Assembly (NCBI GenBank): GCA_021811325.1
Contig: JAJZPE010000015.1
Span: forward strand, 1 to 33,367
Direction: 5' to 3'
DNA: 33,367 bases
Origin: Bacillota bacterium
GTDB taxonomy: Bacteria > Bacillota > Sulfobacillia > JAJYWN01 > JAJZPE01
Below are positions 2,294 through 15,756 of this stretch, in pieces. The notes below the pieces were generated by a model, which was given only the letters and a program-made list of their open reading frames with translations, made no database searches and had not been told where the DNA came from. The first letter of the stretch is position 1. Every line of letters begins with the position of its first letter. The translations under genes were made by a program, and so were the position numbers.

Positions 2294-2411
2294 CCCGGCT
2301 GCGTAGGTGGCCCGGCCGCACCGACAACCAGCAGCGCTTCGACAAGGCGGGCGACATTTCGCGGGAAATGACCCGACTCGACCCGCCGCCGAGCGAGGGG
2401 GGATTGATGCC

Positions 2412-3278
2412 ATGGGCGATCTGACCGAGGCCGCGGGGCTCCCGCTGACCATCCAAGACAGCGGCCGGCTGTCCATCCCGCCGGCGGTGGGCGCCGCTCG
2501 CCCGGCGGTACGGACCCTCGAAGACATGCGGCCGTACCTGGCCGACCCGAACGCCGACGGCCGCGGCCCGGCCGAACTCTACTACATGTACCGTGACCTC
2601 GGCCCGGCTGCCGACCGCGCCGCTTACGCCCCCTTCGGTCTGCGCTTCGACATCACCGTCCTGGTCCCCGGGGACGTCGCGGGCGAACTGGTCAAGACCG
2701 CCGGGCACTACCACCCCGCTCCCGAAGGCCCCGGCGAGGTCTCATTCCCGGAGGTCTATGGCGTCATCCGCGGCCGAGCGCACTACCTGTTGCAGGACGG
2801 CCGGGTCGACGGTCCGGCCCAGGCCTTCCTGGTCGAAGCCGGGGAAGGCGAGGTCGTCGTCGTCCCCCCGGACTTCGGGCACGTGACCATCAACCCCGGG
2901 CCAGGCCCGCTGGTCATGGCCAACTGGGTTGAGGCCACCTTCGCTTCGGTCTACGGGCCCTATGCGGAGCGCCGCGGGGCCTGTCACTACGAGTTCGCCG
3001 GGCCGGGCGGCCGGGGGCGGCTGGAACCGAACCCGCGCTACCCGAGGCTGGTGCCCCTCAGGCGCCTGACCGCGGCCGAGTTCGCCGCTCTCTGTCCGCA
3101 AGGGAGGGCCCTCTGGCGGGCGTCGCGGCTCCCTGACCCGTCGTCTGGGGACGCGCCACCACCACCACCTCAGCCGCCCCGACCGCTCTACCGCCTCGGG
3201 GTCGAAGACCCGGAGCGCCTGGCGTTCCTGGTTCGGCCGGCGAGTTACGACTGGTCCGGCCTCATCGGGCGGAGGTGA
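2412..3278 (+). CDS. Cupin-type glucose-6-phosphate isomerase (archaeal-type PGI family)
   Basis: GHYHP and PEVYGVIRGRAHYLLQ cupin motifs; start chosen at ATG 2412 behind a purine-rich tract (track starts at 2307). Confidence 0.75.
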   Translation: MGDLTEAAGLPLTIQDSGRLSIPPAVGAARPAVRTLEDMRPYLADPNADGRGPAELYYMYRDLGPAADRAAYAPFGLRFDITVLVPGDVAGELVKTAGHYHPAPEGPGEVSFPEVYGVIRGRAHYLLQDGRVDGPAQAFLVEAGEGEVVVVPPDFGHVTINPGPGPLVMANWVEATFASVYGPYAERRGACHYEFAGPGGRGRLEPNPRYPRLVPLRRLTAAEFAALCPQGRALWRASRLPDPSSGDAPPPPPQPPRPLYRLGVEDPERLAFLVRPASYDWSGLIGRR

Positions 3279-3284
3279 ACCCCC

Positions 3285-4193
3285 ATTCCCGACAGCCTTC
3301 CTCCGACTGAACAGCGCCACCCGGGCACGACCGACCTCGACCTTCTGCCCACCGAAGAGATGCTGCGGCGGATCAACGCCGAGGACGCGCAAGTGGCCGC
3401 GGCCGTGGGCGCCGCCATCCCGGCCATCGCCCGGGCCGTCCACGCCGCCACCGCGGCCCTGGCCGAAGGCGGTCGCCTGGTCTATGTCGGCGCGGGGACC
3501 AGCGGCCGGTTGGCCGTGCTCGACGCGGCCGAGTGTCCGCCGACCTTCGGCGTCGACCGCGGCGCCGTCACCGCGGTCATCGCCGGCGGACGTGAGGCCG
3601 CCTGGCGCTCGGCGGAGGGGGCCGAGGACGACGAGGCCGCGGGCATCCGCGACCTGGAGGCCGCCGGGGTGAGGGCGGTCGACGTCGTCGTCGGGCTGGC
3701 GGCCAGCGGTCGAACGCCATACACCGTGGCCGCCCTCAGGCGCGCCCGCGAGCTGGGTTGCCGCACCGTGGCCGTGACCGGCAACCCGGGCACGCCCCTG
3801 GCGGCGACCGCCGACATCCCGATCGAGGTCCTGACCGGCCCCGAGGTCATCGCCGGCTCGACCCGCCTGAAGGCCGGCACGGCCCAGAAGATGGTCCTCA
3901 ACCTCATCAGCACGGGAGCCATGGTCCGGTTGGGCCGGACCTACTCGAACCTGATGGTCGGCGTCCAGGCGACCAATGCGAAGCTCGTCCGCAGGCTGGC
4001 TCTGATCGTCGCCGAGGCCGCCGGGGGTCCATCGATCGGCCCGGCGGAAGCGGCCGAGCTTGTCGCGAAGGCCGGGGGCGACGCGAACGTGGCCATCCTC
4101 ATGGCCAGGAAGGGCCTGACGGCCGAGGACGCCCGGGAGGTGCTGGGGGCGGCGGGGGGTTCGCTCCGGCGGGCCCTCGGTGAGAGGCCATGA
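3285..4193 (+). CDS. murQ: N-acetylmuramic acid 6-phosphate etherase
   Basis: SIS-domain etherase with YVGAGTSGRLAVLDAAECPPTFG; conserved N-terminus TEQRHPGTTDLDLLPTEEMLRRIN lies upstream of the track's ATG (3360). The only in-frame start with a good SD is ATT at 3285 (in-frame stop TGA at 3276-3278). Confidence 0.88.
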   Translation: MPDSLPPTEQRHPGTTDLDLLPTEEMLRRINAEDAQVAAAVGAAIPAIARAVHAATAALAEGGRLVYVGAGTSGRLAVLDAAECPPTFGVDRGAVTAVIAGGREAAWRSAEGAEDDEAAGIRDLEAAGVRAVDVVVGLAASGRTPYTVAALRRARELGCRTVAVTGNPGTPLAATADIPIEVLTGPEVIAGSTRLKAGTAQKMVLNLISTGAMVRLGRTYSNLMVGVQATNAKLVRRLALIVAEAAGGPSIGPAEAAELVAKAGGDANVAILMARKGLTAEDAREVLGAAGGSLRRALGERP

Positions 4194-5896
4194 ACGGCCA
4201 GGCCTTGCGGGCGGCCGAGCCCGCGGAGGAGCCATCAATGACCACCATCGCCCGGACCACCGGCCTCCTCGACCGTCTGACCATCGAAGAGAAGGTCGGG
4301 CAGATGTTCATGTTCGGTTTCCCGGGGACCGCGCCGAGCCCTGAGATTGAGGAGTTCATCGGGCGCCGCGGCCTCGGGGGCGTCATCTACTTCGCCCGCA
4401 ACGTGGCCGACGTGGCCCAGGTGGCCGCGCTCTCCGAAGAGCTTCAGGAGGCGACCGGGCGCGGGCGCCAGAACCTCCCGCTGTTCATCGCCGCCGATCA
4501 GGAGGGGGGCATCGTCGCCCGCTTCACGGGCGCTTCGGGCATGGCCCGGATGCCAGGCAACATGGCCCTCGGCGCCACCCGCGACGCGGTCCTGACCGAG
4601 GCCGTCGCCGCGGCCGTCGGCGAGCAGCTCTCGGCTTGCGGTATCAACGTCAACTTGGCCCCCGTCCTCGACGTCAACGTCAACCCGGCCAACCCGGTCA
4701 TCGGTGTACGCTCCTTCGGCGAAGCCCCGGCCCTCGTCGCCGACCTCGGGGCGGCCGCCGTCCGCGGTTACCAGAAAGCGGGCGTGCTGGCCACCGGCAA
4801 GCACTTCCCGGGTCACGGCGACACCGACGTCGACTCGCACCGGGCCCTGCCCCTCGTCCCCCACGGGCGGGACCGCCTGGAGGCCGTCGAGCTGCTGCCC
4901 TTTAGGGAGGCCATCAAGGCGGGACTCGCCGCCATCATGACCTCACACGTCTTCTTCCCGGCCATCGAGCCCGAACCCGGGTTGCCGGCGACCCTTTCGC
5001 CGCGGGTGCTCACCGGTCTCCTCCGCGGGGAGCTCGGCTTCGACGGCCTGATCATGACCGACTGCCTGGAGATGAAGGCCGTCACCGACAACTTCCCGGC
5101 CGGCGAGGCGGCGGTCCGGGCGGTCAAGGCCGGGGCCGACCTCGTCCTCGTCTCGCACACGCCGGAGCGGCAGGCCGAGTCACTGGAAGCGGTCCTCGCC
5201 GCCGTTCGCCGGGGGGACCTCGGGGAGCGGCGCATCGACGAGTCGGTGGCCCGCATCCTGGCCTACAAGGCCAGGTATGGCGCGGGTCGTCGGTCGGCGC
5301 CGGACCTCGCCCGCCGGGCCTGCGGGACGATTGCCCAGCGTGGGCTGGCCCTCCAGGCCGCCCTCCGGGCGGTGACCATCGTCCGCGATCGGGATGGTCT
5401 CGTCCCTCTGCCCGGCATGCCGAGCTCAAGACCCGTGAGCGTCGGCGTGGTCGGCGTCTCGCCGGAACCCCTCAGTGGCGTTGAAGAAGGAGCCGGGGCC
5501 GGCGGGGCCGAGCCGCCACTGGCCGTGGCCCTCAGCCGGGCAGGCGTCAAAGCCCGCGGGACGCGAGTCAACCTGCGACCAACGGAGGCCGAGGTCGAAC
5601 GGGCCGTGTCCCTGGCGGCGCGGGCCGATGTGGCCGTCGTGGCCACGGTCGCCGCCCACCGTTTCTCCGAACAGGTCGCGCTGGTCAAGAGGCTCCTCGC
5701 CGCAGGGCGTCCGGTCATCGTCGTCGCTTTACGGGAACCTTACGACCTGACGCGTTTCCCAGAAGCCGGGACGTTCATCGCCGCCTACGATGACAGCGAG
5801 CCGGTCATCGAGGCGGTGGCCCGCGTCCTCGCCGGACAAGACAAAGCGGCGGGGCGTCTCCCGGTGACCATCCCCGGGATCGACCCCACCGCCTGA
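4190..5896 (+). CDS. nagZ: GH3 beta-N-acetylhexosaminidase (NagZ-like); start 4190 or 4238
   Basis: KHFPGHGDTDVDSHRALP GH3 motif, DQEGGIVARF; ATG overlaps murQ stop; alternative ATG 4238 has a GGAGGA SD. Confidence 0.88.
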   Translation: MNGQALRAAEPAEEPSMTTIARTTGLLDRLTIEEKVGQMFMFGFPGTAPSPEIEEFIGRRGLGGVIYFARNVADVAQVAALSEELQEATGRGRQNLPLFIAADQEGGIVARFTGASGMARMPGNMALGATRDAVLTEAVAAAVGEQLSACGINVNLAPVLDVNVNPANPVIGVRSFGEAPALVADLGAAAVRGYQKAGVLATGKHFPGHGDTDVDSHRALPLVPHGRDRLEAVELLPFREAIKAGLAAIMTSHVFFPAIEPEPGLPATLSPRVLTGLLRGELGFDGLIMTDCLEMKAVTDNFPAGEAAVRAVKAGADLVLVSHTPERQAESLEAVLAAVRRGDLGERRIDESVARILAYKARYGAGRRSAPDLARRACGTIAQRGLALQAALRAVTIVRDRDGLVPLPGMPSSRPVSVGVVGVSPEPLSGVEEGAGAGGAEPPLAVALSRAGVKARGTRVNLRPTEAEVERAVSLAARADVAVVATVAAHRFSEQVALVKRLLAAGRPVIVVALREPYDLTRFPEAGTFIAAYDDSEPVIEAVARVLAGQDKAAGRLPVTIPGIDPTA

Positions 5897-13482: not shown

Positions 13483-14798
13483 GGTTTTTCCGCTGGCTCT
13501 ATCCCGGTCTGGGGGTCAAGCGCTGGCTCGCCCTCTTCACCCTGGGGGTCTTCCTGATCGCCGCGGGCCTCGCCGTGGCCGTCGACGTCCACGTCCTCGG
13601 TCAACTGGAGGAGGGCATGCGCAACCTCACCACGGCCGCCACCGGGCGCTTCGTGGCCAGGGGCATCCGCGGGGCGGTCCTCATCGTCCTCGGCGCGTTC
13701 CTGGCCTTCGTAGCCATGCAGCGGATCGTCCGCACAATCGTCCTCGGCGTGCTCCCGGCGGGCATCCAGGGCATCGCCAACACCATCTATCAGCGCCGCC
13801 AGCTGGCCCGCGGACCGCGGGTCGTGGCCATCGGCGGCGGGACCGGGCTGTCCGTCCTCCTCCGCGGCCTCAAGCAGTACACCAGCAACATCACGGCTAT
13901 CGTCACCGTCGCCGACGACGGCGGCAGCTCGGGGCGGCTCCGCCAGGAGATGGGCGTCCTGCCCCCCGGCGACATCCGCAACTGCCTCGTCGCCCTGGCC
14001 GACGCCGAGCCGATGATGCAGTCGCTCTTCCAGTACCGCTTCAAAGGCGGGCGGCTCGAGGGGCACAGCTTCGGCAACCTCTTCATCGCCGCCATGTCCG
14101 AGCTCACCGGTGATTTCGAAGAGGCCGTCCGGGCGTCCAGCAAGGTCCTGGCCATCCGCGGGCGGGTCCTCCCTTCGACCCTCGCCAAGGTCACCCTCAA
14201 CGCCGAGTTCGAAGACGGCACGGTCATCCGCGGTGAGACGAACATCTCGAAAAGCTTCAAGCGGATCAAGCGTGTTTTCCTCAAACCCGAGGACCACGAG
14301 GGGGAAGTCATCGAGGCCGTCCCCGAGGCCGTCGAAGCCATCGGCTCGGCCGACCTGGTCATCCTCGGGCCCGGTAGCCTCTACACCAGCGTCGTGCCCA
14401 ACCTGGCGGTGTCCGGACTGGCCGAGGCCGTCCGGAACACGCCGGCCCGGGTGGTCTACATCGTCAACGTCATGACCCAGCCGGGGGAGACCGACGGCCT
14501 TGACGCCGCCGACCACGTCCGGGCCGTGCTCAGCCAGCTTGGACCCGGGGCGGTGGACTCCGTCGTGGTCGCCGGTGACTCCATCCCTCAGGCCCGCCTG
14601 AGGGCCTACGCCGAGTTGGGGGCCCACCCGGTCACGGCCGCCCCCAAGAGTCTCGAGGAACTGCCTGTGAAGACGGTCAGGGCCCAGGTCATCGCAGCTA
14701 CCGGTCTGATCCGGCACGACCCCGACCGGCTGGCCAAAGCGGTCCTGCGGCTGGCGGAGGTGAACCGGCCTGTCGTTCGCCGAGACGACCAAGGATGA
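13479..14798 (+). CDS. yvcK: Gluconeogenesis factor YvcK/CofD-like with N-terminal membrane region
   Basis: VVAIGGGTGLSVLLRGLKQYTSNITAIVTVADDGGSSGRLR; two hydrophobic segments in first ~95 aa; ATGA overlap with rapZ. Confidence 0.95.
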   Translation: MRFFRWLYPGLGVKRWLALFTLGVFLIAAGLAVAVDVHVLGQLEEGMRNLTTAATGRFVARGIRGAVLIVLGAFLAFVAMQRIVRTIVLGVLPAGIQGIANTIYQRRQLARGPRVVAIGGGTGLSVLLRGLKQYTSNITAIVTVADDGGSSGRLRQEMGVLPPGDIRNCLVALADAEPMMQSLFQYRFKGGRLEGHSFGNLFIAAMSELTGDFEEAVRASSKVLAIRGRVLPSTLAKVTLNAEFEDGTVIRGETNISKSFKRIKRVFLKPEDHEGEVIEAVPEAVEAIGSADLVILGPGSLYTSVVPNLAVSGLAEAVRNTPARVVYIVNVMTQPGETDGLDAADHVRAVLSQLGPGAVDSVVVAGDSIPQARLRAYAELGAHPVTAAPKSLEELPVKTVRAQVIAATGLIRHDPDRLAKAVLRLAEVNRPVVRRDDQG

Positions 14799-15756
14799 AC
14801 TGGCCCGCCTGCCCATCGACCGCGACTGCTGCCGCCTCGCCGAACTGGCGGGGCTGGCCCGTTCCGTGGGGAGCCTGGAGATATCCGGGCCCGAGGGCGC
14901 CGGCGGCACCGGCCACCTCCACCTGAAGCTGGCCTCGGAGAACGCGGCCGTCGCCCGCAAGGCCTTCTCGCTGGTCAAGGGCCTGCTCCACACGAGCAGC
15001 GAGGTCACTGTCGAGCGACAGCAGAGGCTTCGCCGGGCCAACCGCTATGTGGTCCGGGCCATCGTCCCCGGGGGTTCGGCCCACCCGATGCTCCACCACC
15101 TGGGGCTGCTGGACCGGCGCGGCGCGGTCACCGGGTCGAGCCCCAGCGCGCTCATCGGTCGGGCCTGCTGCCGCCGGGCCTTCCTGCGCGGGGCCTTCAT
15201 GGGTTCAGGCTTCGTCAGCGAACCCAAGCACCCGTACCACCTGGAGCTGGTCTTCAGCCGCCGCGAACTGGCCGACCAGGTCATCGAACTGATGGCCTCT
15301 TTCGGCCTCCGGGCCCGCGTCGCCGCCCGCAAGGACTCGTTCCTCGTCTACCTGAAAGATGGCGAGCAGATCGGCCAGTTCCTGAACGTCATCGGGGCCC
15401 ACCGGGCTCTCCTCAACTACGAGAACGTCCGTATCACCAAGGGCATGCGCAACCGGGTCAACCGGCTCGTCAACATGGAGACGGCCAACCTGGCCAAGGT
15501 CGCCCAGGCCGCGGTCAGGCAGCGGGAGGCGATCGAGAAGATTACCCGGACCACCGGGCTGAGATCCCTGTCGCCGGGCCTGGTCGAAGCGGCCAAACTG
15601 CGTCTCGATCACCCGGAAGCGACCCTCGAGGAACTGAGCCAGCTGTCCAGCCCGCACGTCAGCAAATCGGGCATCAACCACCGCCTCCGCCGGCTCGTCC
15701 GCCTGGCCGACGAACTGGCCGAAGACCCAAAGGAACTCGCCGACCATCCCACCTGA
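14770..15756 (+). CDS. whiA: Sporulation/division transcription factor WhiA
   Basis: N-terminal SFAETTKDELARLPIDRDCCRLAELAGLARSVGSLEISG extends upstream of track start 14866; in-frame TGA at 14761-14763 leaves CTG 14770 as the best start; C-terminal HTH LTLEELSQLSSPHVSKSGINHRLRRL-type motif. Confidence 0.92.
   Translation: MSFAETTKDELARLPIDRDCCRLAELAGLARSVGSLEISGPEGAGGTGHLHLKLASENAAVARKAFSLVKGLLHTSSEVTVERQQRLRRANRYVVRAIVPGGSAHPMLHHLGLLDRRGAVTGSSPSALIGRACCRRAFLRGAFMGSGFVSEPKHPYHLELVFSRRELADQVIELMASFGLRARVAARKDSFLVYLKDGEQIGQFLNVIGAHRALLNYENVRITKGMRNRVNRLVNMETANLAKVAQAAVRQREAIEKITRTTGLRSLSPGLVEAAKLRLDHPEATLEELSQLSSPHVSKSGINHRLRRLVRLADELAEDPKELADHPT

Follow-up and report, generated by a model that had tools for sequence, protein, structure and literature searches.

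A probable AUU start codon for murQ, and further probable near-cognate starts behind strong Shine-Dalgarno sequences, in a lineage of Sulfobacillia

Introduction

With infC, which encodes initiation factor IF3 and starts with AUU, AUC or AUA, the feedback acts on the discrimination factor that the gene itself encodes. The murQ gene described here resembles infC in its AUH start, its extended Shine-Dalgarno (SD) sequence and its lack of a canonical start, but we know of no link between MurQ and translation initiation. Near-cognate starts have also been described outside the initiation factors. Escherichia coli pcnB, like murQ an enzyme gene unrelated to these factors, uses AUU (Binns & Masters 2002, as cited in PMC13009471); its start was tested experimentally, although in another organism and for another gene. 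In Staphylococcus aureus, cvfC1 (AUU) and ccpN (AUA) combine a near-cognate codon with an extended SD and are conserved among relatives (PMC13009471), as is probably the case for murQ. Those starts were demonstrated by Ribo-Ret and reporters (PMC13009471); that of murQ is predicted from sequence, and murQ differs further in lying inside what is probably an operon. The view that AUU initiation is known mainly from infC, expressed in an initial annotation of the DNA studied here, is thus out of date.

Results

The murQ start region

The window, that is the whole 33,367-nucleotide stretch of DNA analysed, was read directly, and the initial annotation proved right in all its murQ positions (SD, TGA 3276–3278, the CCCCC run, ATT 3285 and ATG 3360; Table 1). 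The TGA is the stop codon of the upstream isomerase gene and lies both inside the murQ SD, GGAGGTGA, and in the murQ frame, which is open from there to TGA 4191–4193. Positions 3279–3359 hold no ATG, GTG or TTG in this frame, the first in-frame ATG is that at 3360, and GTG 3275 is one base out of frame. Of all the murQ homologues scanned, only the window's gene lacks a canonical codon on the way from its upstream stop to the residue that aligns with M26. As in infC, the lack of a usable canonical start is accompanied by an extended SD at normal spacing. The 2.79-Mb genome contains the arrangement GGAGGTGA-N6-ATT a single time, and about one occurrence of such an 11-base motif is expected by chance; its weight therefore lies in its position rather than in its rarity. 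The 3' end of 16S rRNA was not found in the window's genome (G000), a congener (G001) or a sister genus (G002), and the anti-SD is therefore taken as standard. In the folded 80-nt murQ start region, the SD lies within a stem of moderate stability, which counts against initiation at ATT 3285.

We consider it highly likely that murQ is initiated at AUU 3285. The initiator tRNA would be positioned on this codon by the 8-nt SD that ends in the isomerase stop codon, and the predicted product would be (f)M-PDSLPPTEQRHPGTTDLD..., a protein of 302 aa with Met as its first residue. Given that ribosomes finishing the isomerase gene would halt 6 nt from the AUU, coupling by termination and reinitiation is likely.

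Table 1. Features of the murQ locus and further genes with probable or candidate near-cognate starts. Positions without a locus label are those of the window.
Feature	Position	Strand	Remarks
murQ, N-acetylmuramic acid 6-phosphate etherase	3285..4193	+	302 codons + stop
ATT, probable murQ start codon	3285..3287	+	ATC at the aligned codon of congener G001/L034
GGAGGTGA, 8-nt SD of murQ	3271..3278	+	spacing to ATT 6 nt, or 9 nt when measured from where GGAGG ends
Spacer ACCCCC between SD and ATT	3279..3284	+	probable seam of namZ gain or loss
murQ N-terminal stretch	3288..3359	+	missing if ATG 3360 were the start
Upstream gene, cupin-type glucose-6-phosphate isomerase	2307..3278	+	PF06560
Downstream gene, glycoside hydrolase family 3 (NagZ-like)	4238..5896	+	in-frame ATG also at 4190
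GGAGGTGA before whiA	14756..14763	+	anatomy as at murQ
whiA, probable CTG start at 14770	14770..15756	+	conserved in the congener
rny loci with AUC	L268, L269, L270, L274		also L271, L278
HD-domain protein, candidate AUC start	L228:10399-10935	-	G000
Short zinc-ribbon protein, candidate CUG start	L187:292-528		G000
BadF/BcrA-type ATPase, candidate AUC start	L159:10491-11234		G001

The N-terminus upstream of ATG 3360

The conserved MurQ N-terminus had been placed upstream of ATG 3360, and the alignments with homologues and structures bear this out. Those with the solved MurQ structures 4s12, 4lzj and 1nri begin at residue 8 (T8) of the AUU product, and the match to 4s12 (E = 2.1e-87) extends over residues 8–298, a full-length alignment for MurQ. 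In the 25 codons that begin with ATT and precede ATG 3360, 17 of the 25 residues are identical in the congener, and the mismatches fall mainly at the third codon position (5/3/11 at positions 1/2/3). This pattern is the signature of a translated stretch and, as far as the comparison of the two sequences goes, these codons are under protein-level selection. In a relative of the same order (L016), an ATG stands 25 codons before M26, at exactly the distance of the window's ATT.

Translation from ATG 3360, the first in-frame canonical codon, would make the similarity upstream of it a relic. Such a start is extremely improbable, because positions 3285–3359 retain protein-level selection and the upstream stretch belongs to the region that is aligned in the solved structures and conserved in homologues; moreover, ATG 3360 is preceded only by GAAGAG, which abuts it with no spacing.

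The congener and the namZ seam

One congener with murQ was found (G001/L034; also L005), with a protein identity of 75% between the two MurQs. Its start region reads AAGGAG-TGAGTCCC-ATC, the ATC standing at the codon aligned to the window's ATT and 8 nt after AAGGAG. Together with the homologue scan, the structure alignments and the N-terminal codon pattern, this ATC makes the start at ATT well supported. The congener also has an in-frame GTG 9 nt upstream of the ATC, and conservation of the AUH start is therefore probable rather than proven. Since the SD overlaps this GTG and leaves almost no spacing, SD-directed initiation there would be disfavoured, although reinitiation at the GTGA overlap is conceivable. 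In the window, the GTG is out of frame and the AUU is the sole start candidate with an SD. The ancestor of the genus probably already had a near-cognate AUH start for murQ.

The congener's gene order is isomerase–namZ–murQ (namZ carrying PF07075 and PF20732), with the junctions CGGAGGTGAACGCCATG between isomerase and namZ and AAGGAGTGAGTCCCATC between namZ and murQ. The window's isomerase–murQ junction reads CGGAGGTGAACCCCCATT, and no NamZ match was found in the whole genome assembly to which the window belongs. The window junction looks like the end of the isomerase gene joined straight to the start of murQ, with the CCCCC run as the probable seam left by a gain or loss of namZ; loss in the window's lineage would be a simpler reading than gain in the congener. 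Given that the gene upstream of murQ is namZ in the congener and the isomerase gene in the window, the AUH codon stands at the same place behind two different genes and SDs. The congener's muropeptide-recycling cluster (L034 909-6718, versus 2307-5896 in the window) holds, besides namZ, a serine-hydrolase-like gene (L034 3906-5057, recognised by eye only), and both are absent from the window's cluster.

If the true sequence had four Cs, murQ would start at GTG 3275 in a GTGA overlap, and the window would read GTG AAC CCC ATT in frame, parallel to GTG AGT CCC ATC in the congener. We regard such an assembly error as highly improbable. Over 71,188 residues of G000 aligned to the congener there are no frameshift junctions, and 304 C/G runs of five or more lie in intact aligned coding sequence, so that, judged from the assembly, a homopolymer error at murQ is very unlikely; the rule of three puts the rate of error for a run of this kind at about 1% at most. 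GTG 3275 also lies within the SD, so it would be without an SD of its own. The absence of namZ from the window explains the different spacer, and the one-base frame offset with it, so no error is required. AUC at this place in the nearest relative, and unusual start codons in other genes of the lineage, likewise make the AUU of murQ look genuine rather than a product of faulty sequencing.

Ribosomes might instead initiate at GTG 3275 and then slip by +1 on the CCCCC run, CCC-C being a slippery context, or they might read through TGA 3276 into an isomerase–MurQ fusion, the two frames being in phase across this codon. Recoding of either kind is barely plausible: neither could operate unchanged in the congener, with its in-frame GTG and with namZ upstream of murQ, and both would be superfluous if the AUU initiates directly.

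Probable near-cognate starts elsewhere in the lineage

Starts of the kind proposed for murQ recur in other genes. In both G000 and the congener, infC reads GGAGGTGAAGGGTC-ATC, with SD, in-frame TGA and spacing as at murQ. In other members of the class, AUC or AUA stands where the infC start is expected (L118, L119, L122, L124). In both genomes, whiA reads GGAGGTGAACCGGC-CTG with an in-frame TGA and no canonical start nearby. The RNase Y gene, rny, has AUC behind a strong SD, and no canonical in-frame codon upstream, in G000, in G001 and also in G002, the sister genus. Among the more distant genomes, AUC stands at the aligned codon in G004 and likewise in G003 and G007, the last two with a GTG three codons upstream. 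Further candidates are listed in Table 1.

An ortholog scan gave many false genes with no apparent start, produced by alignments entering non-coding sequence or wrong frames, and near-cognate cases were retained only with an SD, a coding shift and no canonical start nearby. Across 957 kb from G000 together with 1,136 kb from G001, start-like sites behind a strong SD at a spacing of 7–10 comprise 94 ATG, 49 GTG and 38 TTG; clean near-cognate cases in the same sequence, counted by eye, number about nine. After GGAGGTG, 15 of 25 ATH codons fall at a spacing of 7–9, that is in 3 of 13 positions, a count that is no more than suggestive, since some of the sites lie within genes. A count of the SD-N-ATH pattern in 61 genomes was uninformative: its control spacing falls within the early codons of genes.

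A permease gene (BPD_transp_2; L188:13593-14903, minus strand) has ATC in G001 aligned to a TTG start in G000; both stand behind AGGAGGTGA, with an in-frame GTG inside the SD.

Discussion

From the recurrence of near-cognate starts in infC, rny, whiA and the HD-domain protein, it seems that this lineage habitually combines weak starts with extended SDs, in the manner reported for S. aureus (PMC13009471). Judging by the same scan, such weak starts may be more frequent here than one would suppose from the textbook examples. The initial annotation saw in the AUU of murQ a rare translational brake on the lactyl-etherase step, with infC-type autoregulation as the precedent. This part of it finds no support apart from AUU being weak in general: at least four other genes of the genome (infC, rny, whiA and the HD-domain gene) have no usable canonical start either, so that AUU is not a murQ-specific device.

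The AUU and AUA starts of S. aureus, with their extended SDs, give roughly 10% of the output of AUG, a value that reaches as much as 30% for ccpN when the medium is rich (PMC13009471). For ATT in E. coli, a figure near 0.3% of that for ATG has been given (Hecht 2017, as quoted in PMC10666635). From these values, the output of murQ would be expected to be lower than with AUG.

A functional reading compatible with the AUU start is that IF3 proofreading at this codon sets the output of murQ, together with that of rny and infC. The combination of extended SDs and AUH starts common to the three genes is consistent with this proposal, as are the reduced output of the S. aureus near-cognate starts and its dependence on the medium for ccpN. 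However, a tolerance of weak starts behind strong SDs would explain the pattern with no need for regulation, and we advance control by IF3 only tentatively, as a possibility that is rather unlikely. That the genes with extended SDs and AUC, AUU or CUG starts (infC, rny, murQ, whiA and others) form an IF3-sensitive set is, in our view, doubtful. If true, RNase Y, the main nuclease of mRNA decay, and a cell-wall recycling enzyme would be tied to the level of an initiation factor.

Initiation at AUU 3285 has a practical side, since gene callers limited to ATG, GTG and TTG would shorten MurQ by 25 residues. It would also place a metabolic enzyme among the few genes that start with AUU. The weak starts of the lineage include a conserved AUC start for RNase Y, and the possible existence of an IF3-sensitive set of genes becomes directly testable.
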